Assembly (NCBI RefSeq): GCF_029360805.1
Contig: NZ_JARKNC010000010.1
Location: 609,287-673,286, forward strand
Direction: 5' to 3'
DNA: 64,000 nt
Source: Daejeonella sp. JGW-45
Lineage (GTDB): Bacteria > Bacteroidota > Bacteroidia > Sphingobacteriales > Sphingobacteriaceae
Shown in pieces: positions 1,206 to 49,261 of the stretch. The first letter of the stretch is position 1. Each line of letters begins with the position of its first letter. The notes beneath the pieces are model-generated. The model saw only the letters and a list, made by a program, of their open reading frames with translations. It did not search any database and was not told the DNA's origin. The translations under genes were made by a program, and so were the position numbers.

Positions 1206-1215
1206 ATCTTTTTTT

Positions 1216-2049: not shown

Positions 2050-2067
2050 ATCCAACATCAAGAAATC

Positions 2068-2838: not shown

Positions 2839-3021
2839 GGCATTACCCTGTGAATCAACCAGGGCGATCCCGGACGCCGACCGCTCCCTGATCGCTTTAT
2901 ATTAACCCTTAACAAATTGACTTTGGGGAACTGGTAGGCACAATAATGTCTATGCATTGGACATGCACCAGCAGCCCGGAAGGGGAATTTAAATTAATCG
3001 AACAATTCTAAATCACTTATT

Positions 3022-5061: not shown

Positions 5062-5161
5062 GTCTTTTTCCGGCTTAAGATACTCAATCATTTTTCACTT
5101 AAAAATTAAAGTTATGGAAGAACGGCGAAGCCCTCCTTCCAACCTTAAAAAACAAATTATC

Positions 5162-5590
5162 ATGGAAGAATTAACTGGTACTGTAGTTCTGGTTCACCCA
5201 GAGCTTATGAATGATCCTGTGAACCGTCAGGGTCATGTTGGAATTGTTGCCACAGCAGATCTTGGACAAGATGAAGTATTTGTGGGTTTTGGCAAAGGGC
5301 CTTTAGGTCTGTATTCGGTCGATGCACTGCTTGTATTAAAACCACACAATGAAATCTATAAAGATCTGCTAAACCACGTTCAGGAACTGGATGCCCAGGA
5401 TTTTAAGGCCATGCTACGGATCAGTATGCTCCTGGAAGCGGGTTCACCCAAACAGATTAAAGATGCAATGGAACTGGCTATGACCAGTTATCAGACTTTA
5501 TCTCACAGCACAATACCCTTACAGGATAAGCTCAACCCAATCAGGGAACAAATCCAGGCTGAAGAGCGGGACTTTGTTCACGCTCGTTAG
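5162..5590 (+). CDS. Tandem paralogue 1, ICE-specific protein of unknown function
   Basis: About 142 residues when started at the ATG at 5162. An upstream in-frame ATG at 5114 would add 16 residues, but the paralogue at 5640 starts exactly at the position equivalent to 5162, so the shorter form is preferred. The two proteins share the opening pattern M-[ED]-E-L-x-x-x-V-V-x-V-H-P-x-L and then N-R-Q-G-x-x-G. The N-terminal half is beta-rich with a G-[LV]-Y-S motif, which could be a small SH3/KOW-like barrel, followed by a helical tail. No known domain is recognised with confidence. Confidence 0.7.
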   Translation: MEELTGTVVLVHPELMNDPVNRQGHVGIVATADLGQDEVFVGFGKGPLGLYSVDALLVLKPHNEIYKDLLNHVQELDAQDFKAMLRISMLLEAGSPKQIKDAMELAMTSYQTLSHSTIPLQDKLNPIREQIQAEERDFVHAR

Positions 5591-5639
5591 GTTGTTTTAA
5601 TTATTAAAACTTATGAACTGCTATAAAGAATAAATTGTT

Positions 5640-6068
5640 ATGGATGAATTGGTAGATAAAGTGGTTATGGTACATCCCAACCTGACCCAGGATCCTGCTA
5701 ACAGGCAGGGGCAGACGGGAACGATTACAAATGTCGTGCATGAGAATGATGAGGTATTTGTGCGTTTTGATGACAATAATATAGGCTTATACAGCTCTGA
5801 TGCTTTATTCTTATTAAAGCCAGCATCTTTAATACTGGAAAGCCTTCGTTCCGCTATTTATGGAATAGATTATCTGGACAGTAAGGATATTGTGGGAATT
5901 CTTGACGTCTATGCACTGCAAGCTTCAGGTCAGATAAAAGAAGCATTGGAACTTGCTATCAGTAATGAAACGGTGCGTATCGCTTCCATAGTATTCGTAG
6001 ATGACTGGATCGACCGTGGCTATACCGATGAACAAGACCGTGGTCAAAGTCCAAATATAAGCCGATGA
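5640..6068 (+). CDS. Tandem paralogue 2, ICE-specific protein of unknown function
   Basis: A 142-residue protein paralogous to the gene ending at 5590: both share VHPxL, DPxNRQGxxGxI, DEVFVxF and GLYSxDAL in the same order, then a helical half in which similarity fades. The stop overlaps the start of the M23 peptidase gene by four bases (ATGA at 6065-6068), indicating translational coupling. Function unknown. A duplicated small beta-rich domain next to conjugation genes could bind nucleic acid or cell-wall components, but nothing in the sequence decides this. Confidence 0.72.
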   Translation: MDELVDKVVMVHPNLTQDPANRQGQTGTITNVVHENDEVFVRFDDNNIGLYSSDALFLLKPASLILESLRSAIYGIDYLDSKDIVGILDVYALQASGQIKEALELAISNETVRIASIVFVDDWIDRGYTDEQDRGQSPNISR

Positions 6069-6601
6069 ACTGGAACGCTGGGGGTAAAGGCGTTATCAAC
6101 TGCATTACTTTTCTGCTTCTTTTGTCACCAGTAAAAATTACCGCCCAGGATATTCACCGGCCAGGCGTTCCTGGAGTCAATATCAGTCTGCCCTTAGCAC
6201 ATTTGATCGTCACTTCATCTTTTGGATGGCGTATTCAGCCGATACTTGGCAAACCAGATTTTCACCGTGCGGTGGACCTAGCCGCCCGAAATGACCCTGT
6301 TTATAGTATAATGGATGGTATAGTTTGTGAAACAGGCAAACATCCCATTCTGGGCAATTATGTGAGAATAGGCCACGGGAATATTCAAAGCATTTACGGG
6401 CATCTTTCTCATTCGCTTGTCAAAACTGATCAGACGATTTTGGCCGGTCAGCCGATTGGTATTACCGGATCCACAGGACGAGCGACCGGGGAACATTTGC
6501 ATTTCAGTATCGTGTTCGGTGATAAGTATATCCATCCGTTGCTTTTTCTCAAAGGAGCAATGGAGCAACAGGTATCCAGCCCACCATTCACTAAAAACTA
6601 A
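6065..6601 (+). CDS. Secreted M23-family metallopeptidase (LytM-like)
   Basis: A 178-residue exported protein: signal peptide with hydrophobic core (CITFLLLLSP), cleavage probably after TAQ. The M23 domain follows with SSFGWR, the zinc ligands in FHRAVD (HxxxD), a central YGH and the HLHF pair near the end of the domain. This is the full set for a lysostaphin-type endopeptidase that cuts peptidoglycan cross-links. In a conjugation operon it would open the cell wall for the transfer pore. It overlaps the preceding gene by four bases. Confidence 0.9.
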   Translation: MNWNAGGKGVINCITFLLLLSPVKITAQDIHRPGVPGVNISLPLAHLIVTSSFGWRIQPILGKPDFHRAVDLAARNDPVYSIMDGIVCETGKHPILGNYVRIGHGNIQSIYGHLSHSLVKTDQTILAGQPIGITGSTGRATGEHLHFSIVFGDKYIHPLLFLKGAMEQQVSSPPFTKN

Positions 6602-6606
6602 GACTT

Positions 6607-6768
6607 ATGAAACAATATTTAAAGAAAGCCCAGCAATCACTTGAGAATAAACTCAATCAATTGCTAGAGGGTGAAACTATCGATTTAAACCCAGATGAAG
6701 CAGCCGTTTATGGTGTAGATCAATCCGATTTTTTGCCCGCAGAAGAGGAGGTAGATGATGGCCGGTGA
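6607..6768 (+). CDS. Small acidic protein, 53 residues
   Basis: An ATG at 6607, five bases after the M23 stop, opens a 53-residue frame ending TGA at 6766-6768. The start of the ArdC-like gene at 6755 lies inside it, giving a 14-base overlap. The protein is helical and very acidic at its C terminus (EEEVDDGR), with a Gln/Leu-rich first half. Tight packing on both sides and sensible composition argue that it is translated. It might be a partner or regulator of the antirestriction protein; that is inference. Confidence 0.55.
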   Translation: MKQYLKKAQQSLENKLNQLLEGETIDLNPDEAAVYGVDQSDFLPAEEEVDDGR

Positions 6769-7942
6769 AAAAGCAAAAGCCCTGCATATTCAGGTCGCCG
6801 AAAAATTGATCGAACAGCTTAAGGCAGGAACTGCTCCCTGGCAAAAACCCTGGAGCAGCGAAAATCTGCCAGCTTTTGAATTGCCTTATAATGTCCAGAC
6901 GGGTAATCGCTATAAAGGCATCAATACTCTAATGTTATTGCTGGCTGAACGGGAGGATCCTCGATGGATGACGTTTAAGCAGGCTGCAGCCAGTGACTGG
7001 CAAGTTAAAAAAGGTGAAAAAGGCACTATGATCCAATTTGTTAAAACGACGGATCAACAGACCAAGCGAGATGAAAAAGGGAAACCGGTATTGAATGAAC
7101 AGGGGCAGGCCGTGAAAATAAATTTAAAACTCGATAAACCGATTATTACTTCGGCCTGGGTTTTTAATGCTGAACAGATAAACGGCATTCCTTCTCTTGA
7201 AAGGCAAGACACCAAGTCTTCAACCTGGAATCCTCTTGAGCGTGCAGAAAGCCTTATTAAACAATCCGGGGCTGTCATTCATCACAGGGCAGGAGACCGG
7301 GCTTTCTACAGCCCATTAGCTGATCAGATTACTATGCCTCTCCGCGAACAATTTGATGAGCCAAGTAAATACTACGCAACCATCCTGCATGAACTGGGGC
7401 ACTGGACTGGGCATACAGACCGTCTGGATCGGAGTATCATGAACAGGTTCGGGACTGAAGATTATGCCCGTGAAGAACTCCGGGCAGAGATCGCCTCCTT
7501 ATTGATTGGTCAGGAACTCCGGATCGGCCATGACCCAGCGCAGCATGCCGCTTACGTTGATAGCTGGATTAAGGTGTTACAAGAAACTCCCTTTGAGATC
7601 CATAGTGCAGCTGCTGATGCCGAAAAAATCTTTAACTACCTGAGCAGTATAGAAAGGAAGCAGGAAATAAAAGCAGAAATAAGCACCAAATTCTTATCTA
7701 TAGGTGATGAAATTCCCTATAAGGAAACTGTATATAAAGTTCAGGGGCATTTAAAACACGGCCGCCTCCGCATGGAAGATCAGAGCAATGGAAACACTTT
7801 TATCCTTTCCAGGTCTGATGGTCTTTATGGGTCCTTACTTCATGCTAAACAGGAGTTGGCTACAGGTAAAACCGTCCAAAAAACTATCGAACCACTACAA
7901 ACACCAGAGCCTGAGATTGCGGCTTATGGCATTAAACGTTAG
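6755..7942 (+). CDS. ArdC-like antirestriction protein with zinc metallopeptidase domain
   Basis: A 395-residue protein. Residues 1-130 match the ArdC N-terminal ssDNA-binding domain (motifs APWQKPW, YNVQTGNRYKGIN and a WxTxKQA-like WMTFKQA). The zincin-like domain follows, with catalytic HELGH preceded by YYATIL and followed by GHTDRLDR. A C-terminal extension of about 90 residues resembles the small beta domain found in related Bacteroidota proteins. ArdC proteins bind incoming single-stranded DNA and protect it from host restriction after transfer. Two start ATGs are adjacent (6755 and 6758). Confidence 0.88.
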   Translation: MMAGEKAKALHIQVAEKLIEQLKAGTAPWQKPWSSENLPAFELPYNVQTGNRYKGINTLMLLLAEREDPRWMTFKQAAASDWQVKKGEKGTMIQFVKTTDQQTKRDEKGKPVLNEQGQAVKINLKLDKPIITSAWVFNAEQINGIPSLERQDTKSSTWNPLERAESLIKQSGAVIHHRAGDRAFYSPLADQITMPLREQFDEPSKYYATILHELGHWTGHTDRLDRSIMNRFGTEDYAREELRAEIASLLIGQELRIGHDPAQHAAYVDSWIKVLQETPFEIHSAAADAEKIFNYLSSIERKQEIKAEISTKFLSIGDEIPYKETVYKVQGHLKHGRLRMEDQSNGNTFILSRSDGLYGSLLHAKQELATGKTVQKTIEPLQTPEPEIAAYGIKR

Positions 7943-7964
7943 ACAAACCCTTTAATCCTTCTTT

Positions 7965-8771
7965 ATGGAAACTATATTTTTTGAAAAGGAACTGCCAATA
8001 ACTGATCTGGAAAAGCTGGGGCTTTACCGGGATGGTAGCCTAATACTTGAACGTGAAGATCTGGATGCCTTGCTATCCGGCAGGCGAACAGACCTCATTA
8101 CTCTTAATGAACTGCAAAGTGATGGCTTTCGTATCGAAAGACTGGACGCCAAACTATCACTGGACAGAACGCCGGAAGGAAAGATAACAATTCAACTTCA
8201 TCCAATTTACAAAGAAGCGCAGAAACATCCTTTACTGGTAGATGTAGAAGCCGACCAGTTGGAACTTGGTACGCTCAGCAATGTTCAAAAAACCTACCAT
8301 ACACCGGAGGGTAAGAAAAAGTCCTGGGTGATCGAATACGATCCTGAAACCAAGGAATTTATATCCTATGACCCCGATAGGGTCAAAGTACCGGAGAAAG
8401 TTAATGGGGAGACACTTTCGGATATTCAAAAGGAACTGTATCGGAATGGCGGCCCCGTACAGCTTTCCGATGGAACATTATTACAGCATCGGGCTAGTGA
8501 ACGAAAAGGAATACTATCTGACCGTGCCGCACTGGTGCTTTCTGTACTATTAGATGGCGGTCTTTCCTATTTAGTTATAAGAGGTCTCCGGAATATCTTA
8601 AATAATCCTAATCCCCAAAAGGACGAATATTCTGAAGCCTATAATCAGGCAAGAAGGGAAATTGAAAAACAACGGATTGAGAACATGCCACCAAATCCTG
8701 ATGTTCGGCTTCAGGACAATAATCGTAAATCACAGCATAATCGGGGGTACGGACGTGGAACCTCCAGGTAA
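7965..8771 (+). CDS. DUF4099/DUF3945-like ICE protein
   Basis: A 268-residue protein. The first part (ITDLEKLGLYRDG ... LLSGRRTDLI) has the pattern of DUF4099, and the middle (HPIYKEA ... LLVDVEADQLELG and LSDIQKELYRNGGPVQLSDG) that of DUF3945, a pair common in Bacteroidota mobile elements. A hydrophobic stretch at about residues 185-210 could be a membrane or buried helix. The tail is polar and Asn/Arg-rich. The molecular role is unknown; it travels with ArdC-like and conjugation genes. Confidence 0.75.
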   Translation: METIFFEKELPITDLEKLGLYRDGSLILEREDLDALLSGRRTDLITLNELQSDGFRIERLDAKLSLDRTPEGKITIQLHPIYKEAQKHPLLVDVEADQLELGTLSNVQKTYHTPEGKKKSWVIEYDPETKEFISYDPDRVKVPEKVNGETLSDIQKELYRNGGPVQLSDGTLLQHRASERKGILSDRAALVLSVLLDGGLSYLVIRGLRNILNNPNPQKDEYSEAYNQARREIEKQRIENMPPNPDVRLQDNNRKSQHNRGYGRGTSR

Positions 8772-8773
8772 TC

Positions 8774-9412
8774 ATGCTCCCTTTTTTAGCGGCTTTGGGT
8801 ATCAAGTCCCCAGTGCAGCATTTTTTTGAACCTTGGCTGGAAGTAAGCTCTGAAACAGAATTACAGTTTTCCTATACAGATCAGGCAATTAACCGAAAAA
8901 AAAGGGAAGTCATAAATGCATATGGTAGCCTTATTCCGTCAACAACCGGGATTTGGTGTGCGGGTGCTCATCATCCACATACAGTCAAACATAACTTTCT
9001 TTTTTATTCAGCGATAGAAGTCCTAAGTTTTTGTAGCATGAATACAGACTGGCTGGCAAAGCCAGGTAACGTTGCATTTTCAGCGCTTGGTCTATGCCCT
9101 GTAGCCAGTCAGGTTGAGATGCTCCGATCCAGATTTCCTAACGCCCGTCTGCATACTGTTTTTGGAAATGATGTATTAGGAAGGATCGCGGACTGCAAAG
9201 TTGCTTTATGGGCTAAAGGAAAGGATGCTGATTTTCATATGCATCAGGATATAATTATTGCACAGTACAACAGTAAGACTTTCCGAATACCCGAGCCAAT
9301 ATTTTCTCTTCACTTCTTTGAACAGAAATGTAGTCTTCGGGCAGGCATCCGTACCCATAAACCAAAAGCAGGGTTTACCACTTTTCTTGAACTTCTCAAA
9401 GAAGCACCTTGA
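8774..9412 (+). CDS. Uncharacterised ICE protein, possibly degenerate Toprim-like
   Basis: A 212-residue soluble protein starting two bases after the previous stop. The central part (LFYSAIEVLSF ... FSALGL ... LHTVFGNDVLGRIADCKVALWAKGKD) follows the order of a Toprim fold as seen in DNA-primase-like proteins of mobile elements: an E-containing strand, then a D-x-x-G-R-like strand. Here the usual DxD is reduced to GND, so activity is doubtful. The Toprim suggestion is pattern-based and weak; otherwise it is a conserved hypothetical. Confidence 0.6.
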   Translation: MLPFLAALGIKSPVQHFFEPWLEVSSETELQFSYTDQAINRKKREVINAYGSLIPSTTGIWCAGAHHPHTVKHNFLFYSAIEVLSFCSMNTDWLAKPGNVAFSALGLCPVASQVEMLRSRFPNARLHTVFGNDVLGRIADCKVALWAKGKDADFHMHQDIIIAQYNSKTFRIPEPIFSLHFFEQKCSLRAGIRTHKPKAGFTTFLELLKEAP

Positions 9413-9443
9413 TAAAAAGATAACAGCGCTAAACACTAAACTT

Positions 9444-9776
9444 ATGATTCCAGAGCAATTTAAGATCAACACGTTGTTGAAAGTAAACATATTTGGCCAT
9501 GCGGTTGATGTGAACTATGCCTATTACTGGCCAAGAATAAAAGAAGAGCAACTAAAGCTCAAAGATGAAGGTCCGCTGGTTAGCCACATCGAATTTCGCT
9601 CTGACTCTAAAATTATCAGCGAAACTGGATATCGTTCACATTTCTTTCACAGTGTCCTCCTGGAAGATACCACCAATGAAACAGTTCAGCAGCTTGTAAC
9701 CGAAATTGGTGAGATGCTGGCCAAAGAAAACGGCTATGAGCCTAGATCTCCAACCAATCAAATGAGCCTCTTTTAA
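9444..9776 (+). CDS. Small conserved ICE protein, 110 residues
   Basis: The ATG at 9444 gives a compact 110-residue protein; the frame is open further upstream, but that part overlaps the preceding gene and lacks sense. It has a beta-rich first half with several Tyr residues, a central SHIEFRSD motif, a helical ETVQQLVTEIGEMLAKENG segment and a C-terminal NQMSLF tail. NQxSLF-like tails resemble beta-clamp-binding peptides (QxxLF class), which could mean recruitment to the replication clamp; this is a suggestion only. The family is not recognised. Confidence 0.62.
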   Translation: MIPEQFKINTLLKVNIFGHAVDVNYAYYWPRIKEEQLKLKDEGPLVSHIEFRSDSKIISETGYRSHFFHSVLLEDTTNETVQQLVTEIGEMLAKENGYEPRSPTNQMSLF

Positions 9777-9822
9777 TCATCACTCAATTTTCTATTTATT
9801 CACTTATTAAAATCAAATTATC

Positions 9823-10701
9823 ATGAACGAAAAAAATCTCGATTACCTTAAAAAAGTTCTGGATAACCTGGGTTTTGGAACCCGGCTTAATGATGTCCTG
9901 GAAACTGCTATCCGCCGGGAGATTCCCCGGTTTACCTTGGGTTTAAACAATACTCATAGGCCCGCTGAAGTAAAAGATCAGAACATACCAAGAACAGACC
10001 ATATTCGGTTTGAACTGAATTTTAACAAAGCCAAAGAAAGCGATATGTACTTCCTGAATGATTACCTGGTTACTCTCCGTAAACAAGGAGAGCCTGTGCC
10101 GCGCATACAAACATTTGACTTGGAAAGAGATCATCGTATCACGGCTTTACAGGCATGGAAACTATTATCTGGCTTATCTTTTGAAAAGGATGTTTATCCA
10201 AAACAGAACAGCGAAGAAAAAAATGCTGAAAAGCCAGAGAAAACAAAGGTGTGGTTTAAATTAAATCTTGACGTTACGGATGCTTACGGTAACCACCCAT
10301 TACGTACATTCTACCCCGAATATCAATACAACTTGTCGGACAGCCTGGCTAAATATCCGTTGAAAGGCTTAGAAGATGCAATCAAAAAAGAAGAAGTATT
10401 AAAAACCTTGAAATATGGCAACTTCCAGGATGCGGAACTTACAATCGGAAAAAAATCAATACCGGTAATGCTTGCAGCTAACCCTCAGATGAAAACCATT
10501 GATATCTACGATAAAAACGGGAGAGAGATCCGCGATGAAGAGATCTTTCCTGAACGAGCGGCTGCTCAAAACGCAAAAGCGGAAACTTCAGCTGGGGTAA
10601 AAAATGAAAAAAATGCTGTAACCCAGTCAGCTCCGGAAAAGACGGAACAACCGTGGAAGCAAGAGCCGGAACTAGCAAGCGCCAAAACTATAGGGAGGTA
10701 A
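9823..10701 (+). CDS. Conserved ICE protein, DUF3945-like C-terminal part
   Basis: A 292-residue soluble protein. The opening (LKKVLDNLGFGTRLNDVLETAIRREIPRFTL) and the repeated use of FKLNLDV / FELNFNK strands are familiar from hypothetical proteins carried in Bacteroidota conjugative elements. The last 60 residues are a low-complexity Glu/Lys/Ala/Gln tail. No catalytic motif is visible. It is separated from the previous gene by 46 A/T-rich bases and probably belongs to the same transcript. Confidence 0.68.
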   Translation: MNEKNLDYLKKVLDNLGFGTRLNDVLETAIRREIPRFTLGLNNTHRPAEVKDQNIPRTDHIRFELNFNKAKESDMYFLNDYLVTLRKQGEPVPRIQTFDLERDHRITALQAWKLLSGLSFEKDVYPKQNSEEKNAEKPEKTKVWFKLNLDVTDAYGNHPLRTFYPEYQYNLSDSLAKYPLKGLEDAIKKEEVLKTLKYGNFQDAELTIGKKSIPVMLAANPQMKTIDIYDKNGREIRDEEIFPERAAAQNAKAETSAGVKNEKNAVTQSAPEKTEQPWKQEPELASAKTIGR

Positions 10702-10814
10702 GTCCTAGTAATTTCCCTTGACTTGCAGGAGAGCGGATATCCCTTTGCGCATATGTACCATGTTTACGCTGGGTACGCTTTAGCGCCGGAAGTCCCGCAC
10801 ACCTTCAGGCACCC

Positions 10815-10879
10815 AAGCCTGGAAAGAACAGCCCTAAACTTCCCGTTTTTCAAACGGCTGGGCTGTTCATGCCAGGCTT
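10815..10879. ncRNA. Long stacked hairpin in the 10702-10931 gap, possible structured RNA element
   Basis: Three nested complementary blocks: AAGCCTGG (10815-10822) with CCAGGCTT (10872-10879), GAACAGCCC (10826-10834) with GGGCTGTTC (10860-10868), and CCGTTT (10843-10848) with AAACGG (10852-10857), loop TTC. Each pair is perfect, giving 23 base pairs with two internal loops. There is no long T run directly after it, so it is not a typical terminator. It lies in a GC-rich noncoding stretch 53 bases ahead of the small gene at 10932. It may be a leader structure, an attenuator or a DNA element used in transfer. Confidence 0.5.
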
Positions 10880-10931
10880 TATCATTCCCGCCCGCCTGGA
10901 CGCTGATCACTACCACTTTAAATCTTATAAA

Positions 10932-11132
10932 ATGAAACGTTTACTACAAAAGGTCGACCGGGTCAGAGCATCCGGAACAGCTACGCTAAATCTGGATCCA
11001 GTCTCTCCCTATTATAATTTGTCAGGCAAAAGATTCAAGGTTGAAAGTATGGGTACCCCCGGTTACAATTGCCGGATTACACTGTTAATCGATGATAAGC
11101 CAGTGGATTTTACCATAAATGATATCCTCTGA
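10932..11132 (+). CDS. Small conserved protein, 66 residues
   Basis: The ATG at 10932 (after CTTATAAA) opens a 66-residue protein; an in-frame upstream start would run through the hairpin and is rejected. The sequence has a basic N terminus (MKRLLQKVDRVR) and then alternating hydrophobic strands ending in VDFTINDIL, consistent with a tiny beta-sheet protein. No family is recognised. It is preceded by the structured 10815-10879 element. Confidence 0.6.
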   Translation: MKRLLQKVDRVRASGTATLNLDPVSPYYNLSGKRFKVESMGTPGYNCRITLLIDDKPVDFTINDIL

Positions 11133-11312
11133 CCAAACTCAGATCTAGTTTACACTTAAGTTTTTCCAGCATGGGTACATTAAGATTACGAACTCCCAAT
11201 AACTATTATGGGCTATGCAAAAACATTGCTCTGGGAGCAACAAAAAACGGGTGCTTACATGAGAAATTGGAAGGTGAATAAGAAAATTATTTACCAGCTA
11301 AAAAAAGAAAAA

Positions 11313-11540
11313 TTAATATGAATGACGTTTCTTTTGGTCATAAATCCATTGCTCGAACTGACGCTCTTTCTGTTTACGCTGAGCGCGTTTTTTCGATCTG
11401 GAGTTAATATATAACACAAGCAGAAACAATACACCAAAAGCAACAGGTACAGCAATCGTGGAATTTTTCATGCTTATACCGGCCAGCATAATGCCGGTAA
11501 CGATAATTGAGGTGAGTAGGAAAAGAAGTATTGTTCTCAT
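11313..11540 (-). CDS. Small two-helix membrane protein
   Basis: A 75-residue protein on the minus strand. Two hydrophobic helices (about residues 4-22 and 29-45) are followed by a strongly basic, Gln-rich cytoplasmic tail (SRSKKRAQRKQKE). No homologue is recognised. Orientation is opposite to the flanking ICE genes, which marks the change from the conjugation module to the cargo module. It could be a stand-alone membrane protein or a small toxin-like peptide. Confidence 0.5.
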   Translation of the reverse strand: MRTILLFLLTSIIVTGIMLAGISMKNSTIAVPVAFGVLFLLVLYINSRSKKRAQRKQKERQFEQWIYDQKKRHSY

Positions 11541-12107
11541 AGCCTTATTGCTTTAATTAGCTAACCAAATTACAATAGATAACGCTTACTCAAATTTACG
11601 AAATTTAGTACAAACAACAAAGTAAATGGCTCATCGATACTCTGATTTTGTATTCTAAGGTGTTTGAAGAAAACAATAATTTATTAGAGACAATGATCCC
11701 CAGAGCATTGCCTGTTGATCACAGATACGGCAATGGACAATTGCTATTCAGAAAGCCGCCCCGTTAAATATATGACAAAAGTCTATATCGAAGCTAAGGG
11801 TGTTATCGAAATAAATAATCGTTCCTTACAGTGCGTCAATAAACTGTTAATAGCATCGGACGACTGGTATTTATCCCAGATCGCTGTAATAAATAACCCC
11901 AATAAGACTCAGTAATAGGCATGTTTACTAAATAAATATTCAGGGTGATAACAAATAAGTTGCGCGCGAAACATAGAAACGGTATTTAAATACTTGGTAA
12001 TTTGGTCGCGATCTTGACCATTATAAAGTACCTTTGAGCTAGGTATAAAAAGGAAATTTTATATATTTAAAGAACGTTAAAATCATCGCTACAAGAAACA
12101 TTTTATT
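11541..12107. other. 567-base intergenic stretch ahead of ietA
   Basis: Mostly A/T-rich and without a convincing gene. A 66-codon frame at 11715-11915 (+) is open; its last 47 codons from the ATG at 11772 have plausible composition (VYIEAKGVIEINNRSL), but support is weak. A -7 promoter box for ietA is at 12029-12036. Nothing else is seen. Confidence 0.4.
12029..12036 (+). promoter_or_regulatory. -7 promoter box for ietAS (TACCTTTG)
   Basis: TACCTTTG matches the Bacteroidota -7 consensus TAnnTTTG, 71 bases ahead of the ietA start. TTTG at 12001-12004 is a possible -33 element, with a rather long spacer of 24 bases. Confidence 0.45.
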
Positions 12108-13106
12108 ATGAACCAGGACTTAATGATCAGATTGTTCCGTTCCATCGATGGGGAGCCAAAGGACGATATAGTTAAAGTCGCCGAGGTTATTATTGATGAT
12201 GAACGCAAGAAGGGACACATGCGCTTAGCTGACCGTCTAAAAAACATACTTGACAAGAATATTAATTATCACCAGTCTTTTAAAGGTGAACTCAAAAACA
12301 TACTTGGCAGTCACGTTAGCATCCCTACCGACAAAAGAAACAATATACCCTTAGCCAACGAGATACCCCGTGAGCAGCTTCGTTATGAAATGATCCTGTC
12401 TCCAGAGGTTGAAGAAAAGATCCAGCGCATAGAAAAGGAATACGTTGCGCGTGAGCGCTTGGCCCATTTTGGATTAAAACCGAGGAAAAGAATCTTAATG
12501 CACGGTTCTCCCGGCTGCGGTAAAAGTATGAGCGCAGAAAGGATCGCCTGGAATATCGGGCTGCCCTTTTTAAAGGTAAAATTTGAAGCCATCATATCCT
12601 CTTACCTAGGTGAATCGGCCTCTAATTTAAAGTTGCTGTTTGAAGCTATTAAAAGCTATCCTTGTGTACTGTTGTTAGATGAATTTGATTTTATAGCAAA
12701 AGCGCGTGACAACAAACAGGATGTGGGCGAAATGCACCGGGTAGTCAATATTTTATTGAATGTGCTAGAAGATTACGATGGCCCAGGAATCATTATTGCA
12801 ACTACCAATTTGGAAGGTTCCATTGACAGGGCTTTATTCAGGAGGTTTGACGATATTATTGAGATGCCCAAGCCTGGCAGGTCTGAGATCACTGAAATTT
12901 TGAAATCCACTTTAGGATCTATCAAAACGTCCAAAGAAATAAAATGGAGTGTCTTAGCCGGAAAGATGGTTGGCTTCTCTGCTGCTCTGATCGTAAAAAT
13001 AGCTAATGACGCGGCCAAGCTGTCAGTTATAAAAGGCAATGATAGCGTCGATGCTTGCTATTTTGACGAATCTTTAAAAGAGAATCAATTATATATCAAA
13101 TCATAA
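12108..13106 (+). CDS. ietA: IetA-like AAA ATPase of an IetAS defence/stability pair
   Basis: A 332-residue AAA-family ATPase with Walker A GSPGCGKS (residues 133-140), Walker B LLLDEFD (188-194), sensor-1 Asn at about 234 in IIATTN and arginine-finger residues in LFRRFDD (245-248). The N-terminal 100 residues are helical and would recognise the partner. The subtilisin gene begins one base after this stop. AAA ATPase plus subtilase adjacent pairs are known as IetAS, first described as a plasmid stability locus and later listed among anti-phage systems (Gao et al. 2020). The assignment rests on domain pairing and order. Confidence 0.82.
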   Translation: MNQDLMIRLFRSIDGEPKDDIVKVAEVIIDDERKKGHMRLADRLKNILDKNINYHQSFKGELKNILGSHVSIPTDKRNNIPLANEIPREQLRYEMILSPEVEEKIQRIEKEYVARERLAHFGLKPRKRILMHGSPGCGKSMSAERIAWNIGLPFLKVKFEAIISSYLGESASNLKLLFEAIKSYPCVLLLDEFDFIAKARDNKQDVGEMHRVVNILLNVLEDYDGPGIIIATTNLEGSIDRALFRRFDDIIEMPKPGRSEITEILKSTLGSIKTSKEIKWSVLAGKMVGFSAALIVKIANDAAKLSVIKGNDSVDACYFDESLKENQLYIKS

Positions 13107-15623
13107 ATGGCAGAATTCCCGCATCTGCCATTAGTACAAACCATCACCGGTATCCATAAACCGCCGAAAGGTGGGGGCAACAACGCTCTTGATCCCCGAA
13201 CCAGCAATAATCTTGCAAACAGAGGCCAGCACGGACAAAGCCTGAAGAACATCACTACGGGGCTGAGGGATGATCGGAGCAAGGTCATCGACGAGCGAAG
13301 AGCAGCAGGTTTACCGGACCTGCCGGGGCAGGACGCCATCCCCATATTTTTGCAGGTTGATACCAAGTTGTTTAACATCGAATCCCTTCGCGGCATGGGA
13401 ATTGAGATCATCGCAGAAGAACTGGATGGATTTATAATCGGTGCCAGCAGTGATGGCTTTACTTCCTTACATGCCAAGATCGATAAATTCATTAACGAAG
13501 AAGGAAAATTCAAGAACCAGGCTGCACAGTTATGGCAGATCGTTGCTGGAAACCAATGGCGCGCCCAGCAAATCCTTTCTGAAGAGCTCTTTGCAAAATG
13601 GCCAAACATTGCGGACGATGATACGCTTATTGTGGATATCTCCGTCGCGTGTTATATAAATAAACCCCCTCAGCCTGTTATGGAGGAAGGGGAGGAAGAA
13701 CAACACTACCAGGCGAAGCCGGCAAGATGGGAAGCCAAAATTCAGGAGATAGAGCTTCAGAAATCTGATCTTGCGGATGAACGGGCAGAATCGATCCAGG
13801 AATTTTTATCGGTATATAGTGCTGACATCAACCCTGAAAGTGTGCAATTTGAAGATAGCTTTTGTTTTCGGGTCACTTTGCCGGGACAGGCTTTAAAAGA
13901 TTTTGTCCTGAACTATCCTTACGTCTTTGAAGTGATTGAATACGTTGAGGTTGATGCTCCTTTAATCATTGACGGGGAAGTGGTTGAAAATGATCTGGAC
14001 ATCGTAGCCCCGCAAGATAATGCCCCTAAAATATGTATTATTGACAGCGGGATGCAGGAAAACCACCGCCTGTTAGCACCGGCGATTTTAGCCCTGGAAT
14101 CTGTAAACTACGATCCTTTTGATGCGACAACGGCCGATTTGGTTGCGCAGGGCGGACATGGTACTAGGGTTACCGGAGCGGTGCTGTACGGCGAGGATAT
14201 CCCGGCTCAGGGGTCGCACCAGCTGCATTGTTTTATTCTAAATGCCAGGGTGTTAAATCGCGATAATATGATGTCCTCCCAACTTTATCCTCCAGCGTTA
14301 ATGGGCGATATCGTTTACAATTTTGTTGATTCAAAAATATTTAATCTTTCCATAAATACGACCATACCTTGCCGGTTGGTACATATGTCTCCCTGGGCCG
14401 CCGCCATTGATCAGTTGTCGCATGAAGAAGAAGTGCTGTTCATTGTGTCTGCTGGTAATTTAAAAAAATCCACAGGTGTGGTTACTAATCCCGGCATCAT
14501 GGAACATGTGGCTGCTGGAAGAAACTATCCACAGTATCTGCTGGAAGCAAGTTGCCGAATCGCCGATCCTGCCCAAAGCAAATTTGCCATAACGGTCGGG
14601 TCAGTATGTCTTGGTGACTTTGAAGACCCTGACAGGATCTCTTTTGGCCAGCGTGACACAATATCCTCATTCTCAAGAACTGGTTTAGGACTATGGGGTG
14701 GTATTAAACCGGAAGTTGTCGAATACGGCGGTGATTGGGTTAGAGAGAAGCTGGGCACTAACCTATCCTATGAAAACTCAATTAATCCGCTGCTAGTACG
14801 AGCTGGTGGAACCGGAGTTGACCGGGGAACGGTCGGGACTTCGTTTTCTGCTCCGAAGGTAACGCATATCGCTTCCAAATTACAGGCGGCATTCCCTAAT
14901 GAAAGTGCATTACTATATAAAACATTAATAATACAATCAGCCAGATTGCCTCAAAACTTATTCAGGACACCCACCCTGACAGCCATGCGGATGTTTGGAT
15001 ACGGTATGCCCAATTTGAACAGAGCAACGGAAAACTCCGAAAGGAGGGTTACCCTTGTGGAAAGTGCAACTGTAAAACCGGGCGTCGCCAACCTTTACAC
15101 GATTTACATTCCACAGGAGCTCAGACGGCCGGGAGAGGATTTTGATATCCTCATCGAGGTAACATTATGTTACACGGCTAAACCCCGTCGAACACGCAGG
15201 AGAACGCAATCTTATTTGTCGTCTTGGCTCAGTTGGGAATCATCAAAGATCGGCGAATTATACGATCCGTTTAAAGCCAGGGTATTGAAACACATGGAAG
15301 ATCCTGAAGCTGACTCAGTGGAGGATAACAATTCAATTAAATGGTCTGTCTGGTCAAACCCAGGATGGGGTACGGTAAAAGGATTAAAAAGACAAGACAG
15401 CGCAACGCAGAAAGATTGGATTGTTGTTAAATCCAATACTTTGCCGGAACAATTATCCTTCGCCGTTATCGGCCATAAAGGATGGGAAAGAGATCTTTTC
15501 GAGGAAGTGCCTTTTTCTTTTGCCGTAAGCCTCGAAGTGCTTGATGGTGAACTGGAAATCTATGAACGGATCAGGGCAGTCAACCAGGTTGAAGTTGAGC
15601 AGCAAATTCAAGTAGTGATTTGA
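13107..15623 (+). CDS. ietS: IetS-like subtilisin-family serine protease
   Basis: An 838-residue cytoplasmic S8 peptidase without signal peptide. A 300-residue N-terminal region precedes the catalytic domain. The triad is present: Asp313 in IIDSG, His351 in GGHGT and Ser579 in GTSFSAP, with the oxyanion Asn451 in VSAGN. A C-terminal beta-rich region (about residues 640-838) is separate from the protease. It starts directly after the ietA stop (TAA then ATG), so the two are co-translated. In the IetAS model the protease is the effector and the ATPase its controller. All catalytic residues are intact, so the system may be active. Confidence 0.85.
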   Translation: MAEFPHLPLVQTITGIHKPPKGGGNNALDPRTSNNLANRGQHGQSLKNITTGLRDDRSKVIDERRAAGLPDLPGQDAIPIFLQVDTKLFNIESLRGMGIEIIAEELDGFIIGASSDGFTSLHAKIDKFINEEGKFKNQAAQLWQIVAGNQWRAQQILSEELFAKWPNIADDDTLIVDISVACYINKPPQPVMEEGEEEQHYQAKPARWEAKIQEIELQKSDLADERAESIQEFLSVYSADINPESVQFEDSFCFRVTLPGQALKDFVLNYPYVFEVIEYVEVDAPLIIDGEVVENDLDIVAPQDNAPKICIIDSGMQENHRLLAPAILALESVNYDPFDATTADLVAQGGHGTRVTGAVLYGEDIPAQGSHQLHCFILNARVLNRDNMMSSQLYPPALMGDIVYNFVDSKIFNLSINTTIPCRLVHMSPWAAAIDQLSHEEEVLFIVSAGNLKKSTGVVTNPGIMEHVAAGRNYPQYLLEASCRIADPAQSKFAITVGSVCLGDFEDPDRISFGQRDTISSFSRTGLGLWGGIKPEVVEYGGDWVREKLGTNLSYENSINPLLVRAGGTGVDRGTVGTSFSAPKVTHIASKLQAAFPNESALLYKTLIIQSARLPQNLFRTPTLTAMRMFGYGMPNLNRATENSERRVTLVESATVKPGVANLYTIYIPQELRRPGEDFDILIEVTLCYTAKPRRTRRRTQSYLSSWLSWESSKIGELYDPFKARVLKHMEDPEADSVEDNNSIKWSVWSNPGWGTVKGLKRQDSATQKDWIVVKSNTLPEQLSFAVIGHKGWERDLFEEVPFSFAVSLEVLDGELEIYERIRAVNQVEVEQQIQVVI

Positions 15624-15931
15624 TTTGAAGCACTGCGAGATATTATGCAGCTCTTATTACGTCGTTTTTCTAATAAGTATGATCACAGCCATCTTGCAGC
15701 TGTTTGAAAGCTAAAAGCGCCAAACGATTTAAGTACATTACCGACTCCGTTATAGTATGATGTATCCACTAAAATTTCTGAGTCTAGAACTTTTTGCTAA
15801 AATATTTAGTTATAAAATCGTAGATTGTCCTGGTTAAAACTCATTATGGTGTAACGGCAAATATTACCAAGCGGGGGATTGTAATCTTAAGAATTAAATT
15901 CCTTAAATGTACTTTTGCCAATTTCTAAGAT
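15624..15931. other. 308-base gap between ietS and the methylase gene
   Basis: No gene is seen. It holds a -7 box at 15910-15917 and a sequence near 15850-15900 that superficially resembles a tRNA but cannot be folded as one. Confidence 0.4.
15910..15917 (+). promoter_or_regulatory. -7 promoter box for the methylase operon (TACTTTTG)
   Basis: TACTTTTG fits TAnnTTTG and lies 15 bases before the methylase ATG at 15932. The transcript would then have a very short leader. No good -33 element is at the usual distance. Confidence 0.4.
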
Positions 15932-18912
15932 ATGCAGAACCCAAACAAAAACGACTCCCTAATAGATACATTAGAAAAACTTGATTTCTCATTTGAGGAT
16001 CAGCCTTTGCCTGAGATTGTTTTTGTAAATAATATTTCCGAAAATCTTCACCCGAAACACTATATGGCTCTGGAATTTGCTGAGATCTATGATGTTGACG
16101 CTGTTTATTTCAGGTATTATGATGATAATAGGTATTGCGTCCCCCAGGTTTATTTTTACGACAATACCCAGAAACAACGGAGCAAAGAGGAAATAGTTGA
16201 TATACACAAAAAGGTTTACAGCAGTTGTCAAGTTCCTTTAATTTGTTTTATCGATGAAACGCACATTACGATATATGACTGTAGAAAGCCTGTTGTTGCA
16301 ACCAAGCAAGGTGAAATCACAAATATCTCATGTCTGTTTAAAAAGGAAAGCCTAGATAGCCTCGAAAGCTTAAATAGCTATTTTTCCGCAAGGCACTTAA
16401 ATTATGGTTTATTCTGGGAAAGTAAGCAGGCATCAAAAAGCTTCCTAAATAATCAATCGGCCTATGAGAAGTTGGTACAAGTCCTCACTGATATCAGAAA
16501 TGGATTTATAAAAACCTTTGTAAAAAATGACTTCCCACAAGAACTGGCTGATGATCTACTGTTCAAATGTATATTAATAAAATATCTAGAAGAAAACGGT
16601 AAAGATGAAAACAACAATTATGCAAGGGATTTTTATAGAAGAAGCAATTTAAAGTTTGATACCTTAAGTGAGATATTGCGGAATGGCGAGATCATAACTT
16701 TGCTGGATAAATTGCAAGACCATTTTAGCGGTAATGTATTCAGTTTTGAGGGCCAAGAGAATAGGAGATTACTGGAAACGTTTGACTTATCCCTTTTAGC
16801 TGAGCATTTAGATGGTAAATTAAGCAATAACCGTCAAATAGCCTTGTGGAATATATATTCATTTAAAGATATACCCATTGAATTAATAAGTAACTTTTAT
16901 GAACAGTTCATTCCCAAAACAGAGGAAAATGCAGGAACTGTTTATACACCGAGTTTCCTAGTTAATCTTCTAATAGACGAGTGCCTGCCGCTCTCGAACA
17001 AGTGGCAGGATAAAGCATACAATATCAAACTCATAGATGTAAGCTGCGGTTCGGGGATCTTTATTACGTCGGCATATAAGCGGCTTGTACAAAGATGGCG
17101 TATTCAGCAAGGTGTAAAGGGGAAACCCTTAGATAAAGCTAACATCCAATTAAAAGATGTGAAAAAAATTCTGTCGAAAAATATCTATGGCGTAGATAAA
17201 AATAAAACAGCTGTTAAACTCACAAAATTCAGTCTTCAACTTGCGCTATGCCAAATTGTACCTAACAACGAGCTATGGAACTGGAGTGAAGAAAAAGTTT
17301 TTGATGATTTAAATGACAATATCTTTGAGATAGATTTCTTTGATTTTTTGCCAGAAAAGAAAAATCTCCACGGCACGTTTGATTTGGTTATCGGAAATCC
17401 TCCTTTCCAATCAATCAATAAAAAGAATATAGATATTTATCAGAGTTATGTGGATAAACTCAAGCAAATTAACTTTGAATTCAAGGCGGGGGTACCAGAC
17501 CGCCAAATTGCTTTAATGTTTTTGGAAGCTAGTGCTGTACTATTGAAAGATGGCGCTGATTTGTGCTTTATACAGAAATCAACATCGTTTCTTTACAATC
17601 AAAATAAAAAATCACAACAATTTAAAAAGGCAATATTAAATAGCTTTTATGTTCATCAGATAATCGATTTCACATTATTGAAGAATGTCCTTTTTGAAAA
17701 CGCCCTGGTTGAAACAGCTGCCATTTTTTATAAGAAAGAACAGAAGGATGATTACATAGTCAACCATATCATTTCAAGGCTCCTGAAAAATACAAAAGAC
17801 GGGTTGTTTTTGAGTTTGATTATTATGATTTTCACGAGGTACCTAAAGCTAAGGCATTGGATGATGAAAATATTTGGCGGTGCAATTTACTTGGTGGCAG
17901 TAGAGTGAATTATTTGATTGAATCATTAGGTACAAACAATGAGGAGAAAACCGCTTTGAAATCTTATCTTAAAGATCATCTATTGATTGAGAAGGAACGA
18001 TATGGAGAAGGTTATAGCCGAAGCAGTGCGGAAGGATCGCAGTCCGCGGACTTTATTACATCGCAACCAAATTTGATAGCCAAAAATTTTTCCTCTGAAA
18101 ATTATCGCTTCGTAAATATTGACTCCAATCAAAGATTCGAGAGACCTAGAAAGAGAATATTATACCAGGCACCCCTAATAACTATTAAGGAGGAAATCAG
18201 TAAAACAAAAATCCCTTTGGCTTATCATAATGTTGACACCCCATTTGACTCGCGAATAGTAGGAATTAGTGTGCCAATATCCAAGGAAGATGGTCTGAGG
18301 AGACTATTTAATGTCTTAAAAAAAAATCAGAGAATTTATTCGTTACAAACTCTGGCGACATGTGCTCAATTCTTCCTCGGCGACACGTCTGTCATCCAAA
18401 AAGGGGATATTGACAAATGGGTTATTCCTTTAAACAAAGAAGATATCGGTCTTTCCACAGAAGAAGCAATAGTACTGAATGATGCTTTAGATTATATATA
18501 CCCATCTTGGTATGAAGGAGAAGCTGCCATAATAAACACAACTACGGCCGACAAACCGGTTCTTTTGAACTATGCCGGTATTTTTTGTGACACTATCAAC
18601 TCTATCTATAAACAAGATGATAGAGAGCTTAAGTTAAAGACGATATATGAAGGTAGCGTCTTTTATGCATGTGAATTCTACTACAGCATGCAATCTCATG
18701 AATATCGCTTTATCAACAGCGATATAGAAATAAGCGCATTATTGAAGCAACAGTCCGGTTATAATTCCATCAGTAACAGGATAATGCGCTTATACGCAAA
18801 TAACGACACTATTACTTTTGTAAAGCCCAAAAAGCTAAAATATTGGCTTAAATCTATAGCGTTGAGAGATGCTGACGACACTTTTAATGATATAATAGGA
18901 GGTGAAAATTAG
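15932..18912 (+). pseudogene. N6-adenine DNA methylase (Eco57I/type IIG-like), split by a -1 frameshift
   Basis: Two overlapping frames, 15932-17908 and the frame ending at 18912, together encode one methylase of about 990 residues. The first part holds SAM motif I (DVSCGSGIF, near residue 367) and catalytic NPPF (near residue 489); the second holds the target-recognition half, with the family-like FEFDYYDFHEV and IPLAYHNVDTPFDS. Restoring one T in the TTT run at 17772-17774 joins them into a continuous reading (NHII-FKAPEKYKRRVVFEFD). The break could be a true mutation, a phase-variable site or a sequencing error. The nuclease gene follows with a one-base overlap. Confidence 0.8.
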
Positions 18913-19619
18913 TGCAGAAGCCCCACACAAATACAAGCATTGAGAACGCTCTGCCATCAGAGGTAATTTATGGTTCGCTGGTTACATTAATTGATAATAA
19001 TATTGAGGCTTATCCGGCATTTTTATTAGAAGCTGAAAATGAATACAAGAATGCTAGATTGACAAAAAAGGAAAGGTTGGAACAAGAAGATGATATAACC
19101 ATTACCTTTGGCCGCTTCTTCAGAAATTTGAATAGTCAGTTTGATTTTGAGCCTCAATCTAAAACCCCAGAAGCCAATGCCACAACAGATATTGGCATAA
19201 TCGCGAGGAAATATTCAAACCATCGCGTGATTTGTTTTATAGAAGCTAAGAGACTTCCAACTCCTAAACAACCGAAAAGAGAGGACAGCGAATACGTGTG
19301 TTATAAAAGCAAGTCCAAGATGGGCGGCATAGAGCGATTTAAATGCGAGAAACACGCAGGTAAGGAAAACCTTGCTTTTAGTATAATGCTGGCATATATA
19401 CAAGAAAACAATCATATACACTGGCATTCCACTATTAACGACTGGGTTGATGAACAAATAGTGTTAAACTCCAATGATACAATCGTCTGGGATAACTGCG
19501 ATAAACTTGTGCATGACACAGAATTTAAGAAAAATAAGATTTATAAATATAGTTCAACACATACGCGGCGCACATTAAAGGATATAAGTTTGTTGCATTA
19601 TTGGATTGAACTTAATTAA
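18912..19619 (+). CDS. Putative PD-(D/E)XK restriction endonuclease subunit
   Basis: A 235-residue protein starting with GTG at 18912, whose first base is the last base of the methylase stop (TAGTG), so translation is coupled. A nuclease core is visible: Asp in TTDIGII followed about 18 residues later by FIEAKR (E-x-K), the D...ExK signature of PD-(D/E)XK enzymes. The C-terminal part holds a conserved-looking THTRRTL and LLHYWIEL. With the methylase upstream it forms a restriction-modification pair with a separate small nuclease. The recognition site is unknown. Confidence 0.72.
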   Translation: MQKPHTNTSIENALPSEVIYGSLVTLIDNNIEAYPAFLLEAENEYKNARLTKKERLEQEDDITITFGRFFRNLNSQFDFEPQSKTPEANATTDIGIIARKYSNHRVICFIEAKRLPTPKQPKREDSEYVCYKSKSKMGGIERFKCEKHAGKENLAFSIMLAYIQENNHIHWHSTINDWVDEQIVLNSNDTIVWDNCDKLVHDTEFKKNKIYKYSSTHTRRTLKDISLLHYWIELN

Positions 19620-19812: not shown

Positions 19813-20691
19813 ATGCTGATAACTAGATTCACAATGGAAAAACACAGTGGGGATGAAATAACCGAGCCCTTGGATATTGATTGGCAAGATCATTTGGATC
19901 ATCATTTTCCCAACCTCGGCAAAGTTTACATCTCGAAAGATAAGATGCAGGAAGTGAATGCAAAACTGACCAGAAGAAACCGGGATATTGAAATTACCAG
20001 AGCAAGTTATAATGCTACTTTTTATGACCACTTTATCCAGGTGATTGATACGGTCGGAGGAAATGACAGGAGGAAAAAGGTAGCCTGGGGACTACTTTCA
20101 TTACTGGAGGCTAAATTGTCTGAATTTTCGGTCCTAACTGATAATGATCCTGTTTTATTCCGCCAACTGAAAGATCAGATGGAAGGACTTTTCTGGGATA
20201 ATCAGGCGAAATACCTTGATCGTGTAGGCGAACTTCTAAGCACCGTGCAATTGATTAAAGCATTTGCCCCGGCACGCCCCAGCTCTCTTAAACATCATTA
20301 CATCCACAAAAACGGGATGATCGACAATAAAGGTAAGGATGCGGATCTATTACTGATCCGCCCGGATGGTCAAAAGGTTTTGATAGATATTTTAAATGTC
20401 AACCTGGATCACGACCGCATCACTGACCGCGAAGGTTTACGTATCGTCCTCACACACCGGATTGAGAAAAAGTGGAAAGAGAAGAAATTCGATGAACCTC
20501 TACTTCATGCCCGGTATGAGCAGATATTGATCCAACCTTTTATCTGGATCTATGATCAGGGTGCCATTGAACAATACCGCGACCTGCTGGCAGATTTCGT
20601 TATGCCGGAAGCGCTGCCGTTGCTGATGATGCAACAGGGAGCAGATCCAACAGGTAAAATAATATATCAATGCTTGCCGTTGGGCAGATAA
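19813..20691 (+). CDS. Unknown defence-island protein A, nuclease-like motif
   Basis: A 292-residue soluble protein; a start at 19834 is a possible alternative. The N-terminal 160 residues are helical and charged. A segment at residues 174-197 reads GKDADLLLIR...VLIDILNVN, that is D178-x13-D192-x2-N195-V-N, which imitates the D...(E/D)xK core of PD-(D/E)XK nucleases but with Asn in place of Lys. The gene downstream, 16 bases away, carries a matching motif. No known family is recognised. It stands next to restriction and IetAS genes, so a defence role is a reasonable inference. Confidence 0.65.
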   Translation: MLITRFTMEKHSGDEITEPLDIDWQDHLDHHFPNLGKVYISKDKMQEVNAKLTRRNRDIEITRASYNATFYDHFIQVIDTVGGNDRRKKVAWGLLSLLEAKLSEFSVLTDNDPVLFRQLKDQMEGLFWDNQAKYLDRVGELLSTVQLIKAFAPARPSSLKHHYIHKNGMIDNKGKDADLLLIRPDGQKVLIDILNVNLDHDRITDREGLRIVLTHRIEKKWKEKKFDEPLLHARYEQILIQPFIWIYDQGAIEQYRDLLADFVMPEALPLLMMQQGADPTGKIIYQCLPLGR

Positions 20692-20707
20692 GCATATTAG
20701 AAACACC

Positions 20708-22144
20708 ATGATTAGGAAAATCTCCTTACGCCGGTTTAATGCCTTTTGTTATGTACGCCTGCCTTTCCTCCTGTATAGCTTTAAAGAGCTGGCCTGGTAC
20801 GAAGCCTTTAATGTCAAATTACTGGGAACGGTTGTTATAGACACTGACGGGGAATACTTATATATGATACTGGCTAGGGATAAGCGTAAAATATTCAGGG
20901 CCTGGGATTTTGCTAACCATACCTTTGAAACACAGGATGAGGCAGAAGAGGCGCTAATAGAGGCTTTTGCAAAATATGAAAATGACGGGCAGGAGGTTTA
21001 TGAACAAGGGGATGAAAAGATGCTGCCTCATGAATTTTTGCAGCCACAGGTACCCGTAGACAAGTTACATCCCTATTTCAAATCCTTACTGGATCAACGA
21101 GGGCATGAAGGGGCGCGAAACATGATCAATGAGATCGTCTACAGCTTTATGGACGTTGATGGCAACTACATTAAGGATTTCCAGACAACAGGATTTGATG
21201 CCAGGTTATGGGAACTGTACCTGTATGTTTACCTGTATTCTGCCGGATTTGATTTTGACAAAAGCAAAAGCGCTCCGGATTACCTGGTATCCTATTACGG
21301 AGAAGATTTCGCTATCGAAGCGGTGACGGTAAACAAAAGTACACAGTTTGATGAGCCTAATCCGCAAAATATGACTGATGCCTTTTTACTCAGCCGGGAT
21401 TACATGCCGATCAAATATGGCAGCTCGCTGATTTCCAAACTAAGAAAAAAATACTGGCTTAAAAACCACGTTTCGGGCAAGCCTTTCATAATTGCCATAC
21501 ACGATTTTCATCAAGCATCCACTCCTGAAAAACTGGGTTCGATGACCTGGTCGAGGAATGCACTGATCGATTATCTTTTCGGCGTAAGGCCGAAATATAC
21601 ACTTGATGAAAATGGTGAAGTAGTGTTGGGAGTTCGCCAAACAAAGCATGGCGTTAGCCAGGATTATGAATCTGTGCACTGGCACGAATGGAAAGGCAAA
21701 AAAATAGAATCCGGTTTTTTTCTTTTGCCGGATGCTGAAAATGTAAGCGTCGTTCTTTTTTCCAATAGTGCTACCTTAACCACTTTTAACCGAATGGGCC
21801 AGCTGGCAGGGTTAGGGCGTGCGGACACACAGATGATCCGCTTCATGGATGTTTACAATCCCGATCCAAATTCTATTACCCCAATACGTATGGCTAAAAA
21901 CATAGCCGACGAAGATTATGAAGAGGCTTGGGGTGATGGTCTGGTCATGTACCATAACCCTGACGCTAAATACCCGGTTGACCCGGATTGCTTTCCTGAT
22001 ATCGCGCACATTTTCTATGATAAAAAGCAAATGCTGGTTTACGGTATACCACACCCATTCAGTGTCTTAAATTCACTTACAATGGTCTTGATTCCTCAAA
22101 GTGAAGATGAAACTAAGTTTTTTGACAATAGCTCTCCAGAATAA
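20708..22144 (+). CDS. Unknown defence-island protein B, nuclease-like motif
   Basis: A 478-residue protein, second gene of the operon begun at 19813. The middle holds FDARLWELYL (E169), then APDYLV (D191) and FAIEAVTVN (E204, T207, N209): an E...D-x12-E-x2-T-V-N arrangement similar to a PD-(D/E)XK core. I recall proteins with this FDARxWELYL motif being labelled only as hypothetical or, misleadingly, 'glycosaminoglycan attachment' proteins. The N-terminal 110 residues look like a separate small domain, and the last 130 are beta-rich. No membrane segments. Function unknown. Confidence 0.68.
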   Translation: MIRKISLRRFNAFCYVRLPFLLYSFKELAWYEAFNVKLLGTVVIDTDGEYLYMILARDKRKIFRAWDFANHTFETQDEAEEALIEAFAKYENDGQEVYEQGDEKMLPHEFLQPQVPVDKLHPYFKSLLDQRGHEGARNMINEIVYSFMDVDGNYIKDFQTTGFDARLWELYLYVYLYSAGFDFDKSKSAPDYLVSYYGEDFAIEAVTVNKSTQFDEPNPQNMTDAFLLSRDYMPIKYGSSLISKLRKKYWLKNHVSGKPFIIAIHDFHQASTPEKLGSMTWSRNALIDYLFGVRPKYTLDENGEVVLGVRQTKHGVSQDYESVHWHEWKGKKIESGFFLLPDAENVSVVLFSNSATLTTFNRMGQLAGLGRADTQMIRFMDVYNPDPNSITPIRMAKNIADEDYEEAWGDGLVMYHNPDAKYPVDPDCFPDIAHIFYDKKQMLVYGIPHPFSVLNSLTMVLIPQSEDETKFFDNSSPE

Positions 22145-22474: not shown

Positions 22475-22876
22475 ATGAAAACAAAAACGATTATCAAGGG
22501 AAAAGTCACTATCGAAAAACGGAAGGCGTGGGGTAGATTAGACGAGAATACCAAGAGCAAAATTTTAAAAGAACTTAAATTAGGTTTAATTGGTCAGCGG
22601 GAAGCAAGCAGAAGATACGGTATACCACGAACTACCATAATTCATTGGCAACGCAAGGACAATTTGGTTACATTGCTAAATGCACAAAGTTCTCGAAAGC
22701 CATCGGCTATGACCGAAAGTCAAGAATCAAAATTACTCATCAGGAAGATAGAAGAATTGACTAAGGCACTTGCACACTCCCAATTGAAGAACATTGCACT
22801 GGAAACAATGATCGAAGTTGCTGAGACTGACTTGCATATTAAGATCCGAAAAAAGCGTGGTACCAAACAGTCTTAA
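22475..22876 (+). CDS. IS3-family transposase OrfA
   Basis: A 133-residue protein with the helix-turn-helix of IS3/IS150 OrfA proteins (LGLIGQREASRRYGIPRTTIIHWQ at about residues 32-55) and a C-terminal coiled coil (ELTKALAHSQLKNIALETMIEVAE) used for multimerisation. It is followed by the remnant of orfB in a different frame. Probably intact as a protein but without a partner. Confidence 0.85.
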   Translation: MKTKTIIKGKVTIEKRKAWGRLDENTKSKILKELKLGLIGQREASRRYGIPRTTIIHWQRKDNLVTLLNAQSSRKPSAMTESQESKLLIRKIEELTKALAHSQLKNIALETMIEVAETDLHIKIRKKRGTKQS

Positions 22877-49140: not shown

Positions 49141-49261
49141 GTTTTGCAGCTAAAAGGTGAAACAACGTAGTGAGTGATTCGAAGAGTAAAGAATTTCCGA
49201 CTACATAAGACATTAACAACCAGTAGGTTACGAACAAGGTTTTAGTTCCCTACGGGCTACG

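Follow-up and report, generated by a model that had tools for sequence, protein, structure and literature searches.

A PD-T7-1 defence gene preceded by a nuclease-like gene of an undescribed family in a Daejeonella defence island

Which proteins are encoded by two tandem genes in a defence island of Daejeonella sp. JGW-45, and do they act as one system? The window, by which we mean the whole 64,000-nucleotide stretch of DNA that was analysed, carries both on the forward strand: gene 1 (19813-20691, 292 aa) is followed after 16 bases by gene 2 (20708-22144, 478 aa). The two open reading frames (ORFs) and their spacing are as given in the original prediction, which described a mobile two-gene defence system with the same nuclease-like signature in each protein.

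Gene 2 and the PD-T7-1 family

The original prediction could not match the pair to a named family, and for gene 2 this no longer holds. Its PADLOC matches include one model named PD-T7-1 (PDLC04073), which aligns from position 2 to 448 of 452 with residues 3-462 (E 3e-162), nearly the whole length of the protein. Judged by this match, gene 2 is the known anti-phage defence protein PD-T7-1. The second-best PADLOC match is PD-T7-5 (E 1.4e-47), but that model is shorter (346 positions) and its match begins only at residue 110 of gene 2. The PHROGs match (phrog_8571) is annotated as of unknown function.

In E. coli, PD-T7-1 consists of one gene; the window differs from it in having an additional upstream gene and in its host, a Pedobacter relative. 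Phage protection by PD-T7-1 is known from the E. coli homologues, and gene 2 of the window is read from its sequence. A passage of PMC9519451 attributes activity against phages to E. coli PD-T7-1, and part of PMC12409345 states that PD-T7-1 expressed in K-12 protects against a Teseptimavirus and makes T7 plaques smaller. Gene 2 resembles the PD-T7-1 of Vassallo et al. (2022, PMC9519451) in its near full-length model match and its invariant core residues, and a figure legend of that paper has homologues in a defence island or prophage. One passage of a review places PD-T7-1 under PD(D/E)XK nuclease (PMC10952713), and a portion of another article gives an RmuC-like prediction of low probability (PMC10270631).

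Of 395 genomes of the phylum, 11 match the PD-T7-1 model at E <=0.001, and the match is full length in only three, the window's included. Relatives were also detected in 104 plasmid records (all below 60% identity), 13 phage records and 43 viral contigs, and the best 80 of 205 candidates were taken from genomes.

We aligned PD-T7-1 sequences in 127 rows, with the protein of the window present a second time in one of them; two rows of <=400 aa (L023 and L044) were dropped. E169, P190, D191, E204 and K244, the last on a helix, are invariant in all 127. The first of these is the upstream Glu (LWELYL) already pointed out in the original prediction. T207 is kept in 95 of the rows and N209 in 62, and every row has V, T, A or L at position 206, so that the usual ExK lysine is absent. 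In the structure model of gene 2 (pLDDT 88), a helix at 163-178 carries E169, a strand at 192-196 follows D191, a strand at 199-208 carries E204, and a helix at 222-245 and a strand at 260-266 complete the core. This is the order of core elements of the PD-(D/E)XK fold, with acidic residues on the first helix and the next two strands; no Foldseek match of the model reaches E 0.001.

Lysine-shifted variants of PD-(D/E)XK are known, and the missing ExK lysine thus weakens only the canonical reading of gene 2. Most likely, the catalytic lysine has moved from ExK to the following helix, where K244 would replace it. Gene 2 would then be a PD-(D/E)XK-type nuclease with E169, D191 and E204 as metal-binding residues, and it probably cuts the nucleic acid of infecting phage. 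The proposed lysine-shifted active site does not vary in any aligned row and offers precise residues for mutation.

Gene 1 and the motif common to both proteins

Gene 1 has nothing above cut-off in Pfam, PADLOC, PHROGs or NCBIfam and no significant sequence match in PDB. Its relatives were sought in overlapping sets of genomes from the window's family (201), order (350), class (295) and phylum (395) and from the family of Filimonas (344). These searches returned one close relative, in Filimonas zeae (47% identity), and three distant ones (in genomes G901, G1337 and G1164); none was detected in plasmids or phages by tblastn, nor in viral contigs by protein and alignment searches. A further weak match from the phylum search (G329; E 0.009, 35% identity over 61 residues) was set aside. 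Likewise, the PADLOC matches of the Filimonas copy to MTase_II (E 0.003) and HerA (E 0.004) are weak and were taken as chance. Between the window and Filimonas copies, third codon positions differ in 184 of 288 codons and second positions in only 87, which indicates that gene 1 behaves as a protein-coding gene; dS is saturated and gives no ratio.

In the protein, a helical N-terminal part (about 24-123) is followed by a PD-(D/E)XK-like region in the C-terminal part, where E140, D178, D192, N195 and K219/K220/K224 lie. In an alignment of five members, the window's included, the invariant positions include E140, D178, N195, L198, K219, K220, K224, P242 and W245. Position 192 is acidic throughout: the window's protein has D there and its four relatives have E. 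The residue two past it is L, R, L, Y and L, so that the ExK lysine is missing here as well. E140 (VGEL) is the counterpart of gene 2 E169 and had gone unmentioned in the original prediction.

The structure model of gene 1 is poor (pLDDT 45) and was built from only two rows. At this low confidence, residues 132-246 form the series helix-strand-strand-strand-helix-strand, and E140, D178 and D192 fall where the fold would have them. Nucleases fill eight of the first ten Foldseek rows and represent five distinct proteins (EndoMS, NucS, SSO0001, HincII and Exo5), which we take to be PD-(D/E)XK enzymes; the best E is 0.16, and none of the matches is significant or reaches E 0.001. Structure prediction of each protein, which had been proposed as a check, shows a fitting core order for gene 2 and, at low confidence, suggests such an order for gene 1. 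Taken with the conserved residues, gene 1 appears to be a further lysine-shifted protein of the PD-(D/E)XK-like kind, in which a helical front part would be joined to a nuclease-like domain of its own.

The resemblance on which the original prediction was built can be written as D-x(12,13)-[DE]-x2-[NT]-[VI]-N. Gene 1 has the pattern at D178 and gene 2 at D191, the positions first given, and none of the other listed ORFs of the window has it (38 ORFs of >=200 aa were listed). Shuffled versions of the two proteins yield it in 0.2% and 0.4% of trials, percentages that overstate the surprise since the pattern was devised after both proteins had been seen. Conservation of the motif within each family is the stronger evidence, and it bears out nuclease-like motifs in both proteins. 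As a shared signature the motif holds in part: the acidic residues are kept, but the final N of gene 2 is poorly conserved, and the placement as D...ExK agrees with the acidic residues and not with the lysine, which both families lack at that point.

Profile comparison detected no homology between gene 1 and gene 2 (0.2% and 2% probability). The weak structural matches common to both models are two XisH structures (2okf and 2inb), Hjc (1gef) and yeast acetyl-CoA carboxylase; XisH-type and Hjc-type proteins are presumably PD-(D/E)XK proteins, and acetyl-CoA carboxylase, a non-nuclease, is the top VIA row for both. In the cap-snatching endonucleases of segmented RNA viruses, which are PD-(D/E)XK enzymes, the lysine sits on the following helix. 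Like them, both families are without the ExK lysine and have invariant lysines later, and the weak matches of gene 1 include the endonucleases of Ebinur Lake, La Crosse and Hantaan. The likeness is an analogy confined to active-site layout; nothing shows a relation by sequence.

One system or two neighbours

In Filimonas zeae (locus L028), gene 1 again lies directly upstream of PD-T7-1, at a distance of 6 bases, and the proteins are 47% (gene 1) and 65% (gene 2) identical to those of the window. This locus was located via PD-T7-1, and the adjacency of gene 1 there is therefore a biased observation. We collected 100 non-redundant PD-T7-1 loci, of which 7 have no upstream and 3 no downstream ORF, mostly at contig ends. 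Gene 1 stands beside PD-T7-1 in 2 of the 93 with an upstream ORF, the window and Filimonas. Among the matches listed, the five closest PD-T7-1 loci (L026-L030) have gene 1 only in L028, and an HMM of the gene 1 family found no further copy in the ORFs of 148 loci. The pairing of gene 1 with PD-T7-1 is thus rare among the genomes examined, and the prediction of a single two-gene system draws on the tight pair in two genera but is weakened by the carriage of PD-T7-1 elsewhere without gene 1.

Our preferred explanation, to which we give somewhat better than even chances, is that a PD-T7-1 nuclease is joined here by gene 1 as a nuclease-like assistant subunit, sensor or regulator. Gene 1 is probably on the same message as PD-T7-1, just ahead of it, in the window's host and in Filimonas, and would most likely assist it in one of these roles. 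We regard the locus as a known defence gene with a facultative, uncharacterised partner, and cooperation between the two is plausible. A more specific version, a heteromeric two-nuclease PD-T7-1 in which the unrelated lysine-shifted PD-(D/E)XK subunit would cut the other strand or provide the trigger, is speculative and rather unlikely.

The main competitor, which we consider a real possibility though short of an even chance, is that two independent single-gene defence proteins lie side by side, PD-T7-1 acting alone and gene 1 being its own system or having another job. It agrees with the neighbour counts: 24 of 93 loci have a same-strand ORF no more than 100 bases upstream of PD-T7-1 and 19 of 97 have one downstream, about the same frequency, as counted by crude ORF calling in which some ORFs are probably spurious (e.g. 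in L083). Because of this similarity, we did not adopt the view that an upstream nuclease partner is a general feature of PD-T7-1. The 45 upstream ORFs compared form few related groups, and the upstream neighbours elsewhere include two unrelated nucleases, HNH (L027) and PIN (L003, which is one locus with L026); further ones are a SEC-C protein (L022, about 91% identical to relatives in L073 and L091) and others.

The three distant relatives of gene 1 fit the same alternative, as there is no PD-T7-1 within the 16-18 kb around each. One (L151) is about 3 kb from a large protein resembling the defence candidates PDC-S37 and Hhe, the second (L154) is near a kinase-like protein with weak PADLOC matches and, by eye, an integrase, and the third (L155) directly follows a response regulator among two-component genes, also by eye. 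Homologues scattered outside defence contexts were named beforehand as an argument against a dedicated system, and these relatives, together with the PD-T7-1 loci that lack gene 1, go some way towards it. Against independence stand the gaps, which remain tight at 16 and 6 bases despite the divergence of gene 1 to 47% identity, and we retain assistance of PD-T7-1 by gene 1 as the better account.

That gene 1 is instead a non-catalytic regulator or immunity-type protein with a degenerate nuclease-like domain, restraining PD-T7-1 until infection, would suit its variable residue two past D/E192 and its position ahead of the effector gene, the order in which antitoxins often occur, but is improbable: E140, D178, D/E192 and the three lysines persist at 20-47% identity, as if the active site were preserved, and the other loci examined have PD-T7-1 but no gene 1.

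Gene 2 is already known; the novelty lies in the undescribed family of gene 1 and in the occurrence of gene 1 next to PD-T7-1 in two genera. The portions of the PD-T7-1 and PD-T7-5 literature that were covered, with preprints and many journals outside, make no mention of a gene 1-like partner, which argues only weakly that none has been described. A passage of PMC9519451 that does not name PD-T7-1 calls it unclear how phage is sensed by single-protein systems with a putative DNase domain. A version of PD-T7-1 with a dedicated partner could reveal which step the partner takes over.

Other arrangements around PD-T7-1 also occur. The viral contigs L147 (3906-4829 and 4845-6299) and L148 encode tandem PD-T7-1-like genes, the first of 308 aa and the second of 471 or 484 aa depending on the start, and with the chosen starts the 308-aa gene precedes PD-T7-1 by 51 and 54 bases, respectively. 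The 308-aa protein of L147 resembles PD-T7-1 (E 4e-7), a second case of a small nuclease-like gene ahead of PD-T7-1, and pairings similar to that of gene 1 may exist with other small upstream nuclease-like genes such as this one. In Filimonas zeae, a gene 68 bases after PD-T7-1 (7479-9227 of L028) encodes an Mrr/LmuA-like front part and a beta-propeller, a layout similar to that of a propeller-nuclease defence protein mentioned in part of PMC9519451.

The surrounding defence island and mobile element

The setting in a defence island was borne out by the neighbouring genes, all on the forward strand and outside the pair. Upstream we detected IetAS by Pfam and PADLOC, with the AAA ATPase IetA at 12108-13106 and the subtilase IetS at 13107-15623, followed by type IIG-like restriction-modification genes at 15932-17908 (PADLOC REase_MTase_IIG, E 5.5e-34), 17857-18912 and 18912-19619. 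A possible third gene of the set, a 75-aa ORF at 22224, has no significant match in Pfam, PADLOC, PHROGs or NCBIfam and no counterpart in the loci examined except its own copy, and it probably lies outside the system. Beside it, 22475-22876 may be a transposase fragment, with weak IS3-like and IS630-like matches far under cut-off.

Mobility is likewise supported. Among the genes further upstream are those for TraM, a coupling protein, ArdC and a DUF4099/DUF3945 protein, which points to a conjugative-transposon-type element. In a comparison of 38 kb, a congeneric genome (G493) has 91-97% identical blocks over most of 1-15703 of the window, that is, to just past the end of IetS; beyond this point the two are different except for one short match (49129-49262). 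Its element (L164 and L165) has IetAS, with two extra ORFs before it, and different cargo after IetS that includes a 1335-aa ORF on the other strand. PD-T7-1 is absent from the G493 stretches compared, and gene 1 was not found in that genome. As this segment of the window is missing from a closely similar element, the restriction genes, gene 1 and PD-T7-1 appear, in one comparison, to be variable cargo of a conjugative-transposon-like element.

IetA relatives occur near PD-T7-1 in five further loci (L021, L022, L073, L080 and L086), including Microvirga and Xanthomonas, a count that has no background rate beside it. Three genomes have related type IIG clusters no more than a few kb from PD-T7-1, with differing orientations: the window (15932-19619), Pedobacter sp. 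Leaf194 (L026, 7432-10994) and Sphingobium sp. TomTYG65 (L020, 628-4087). In the window, the type IIG-like gene at 15932-18912 is split into two overlapping frames of 658 and 351 aa, which may reflect a broken gene, phase variation or a sequencing error; in the Pedobacter and Sphingobium relatives one open frame spans both, with 999 and 987 residues, respectively, counted from stop to stop.
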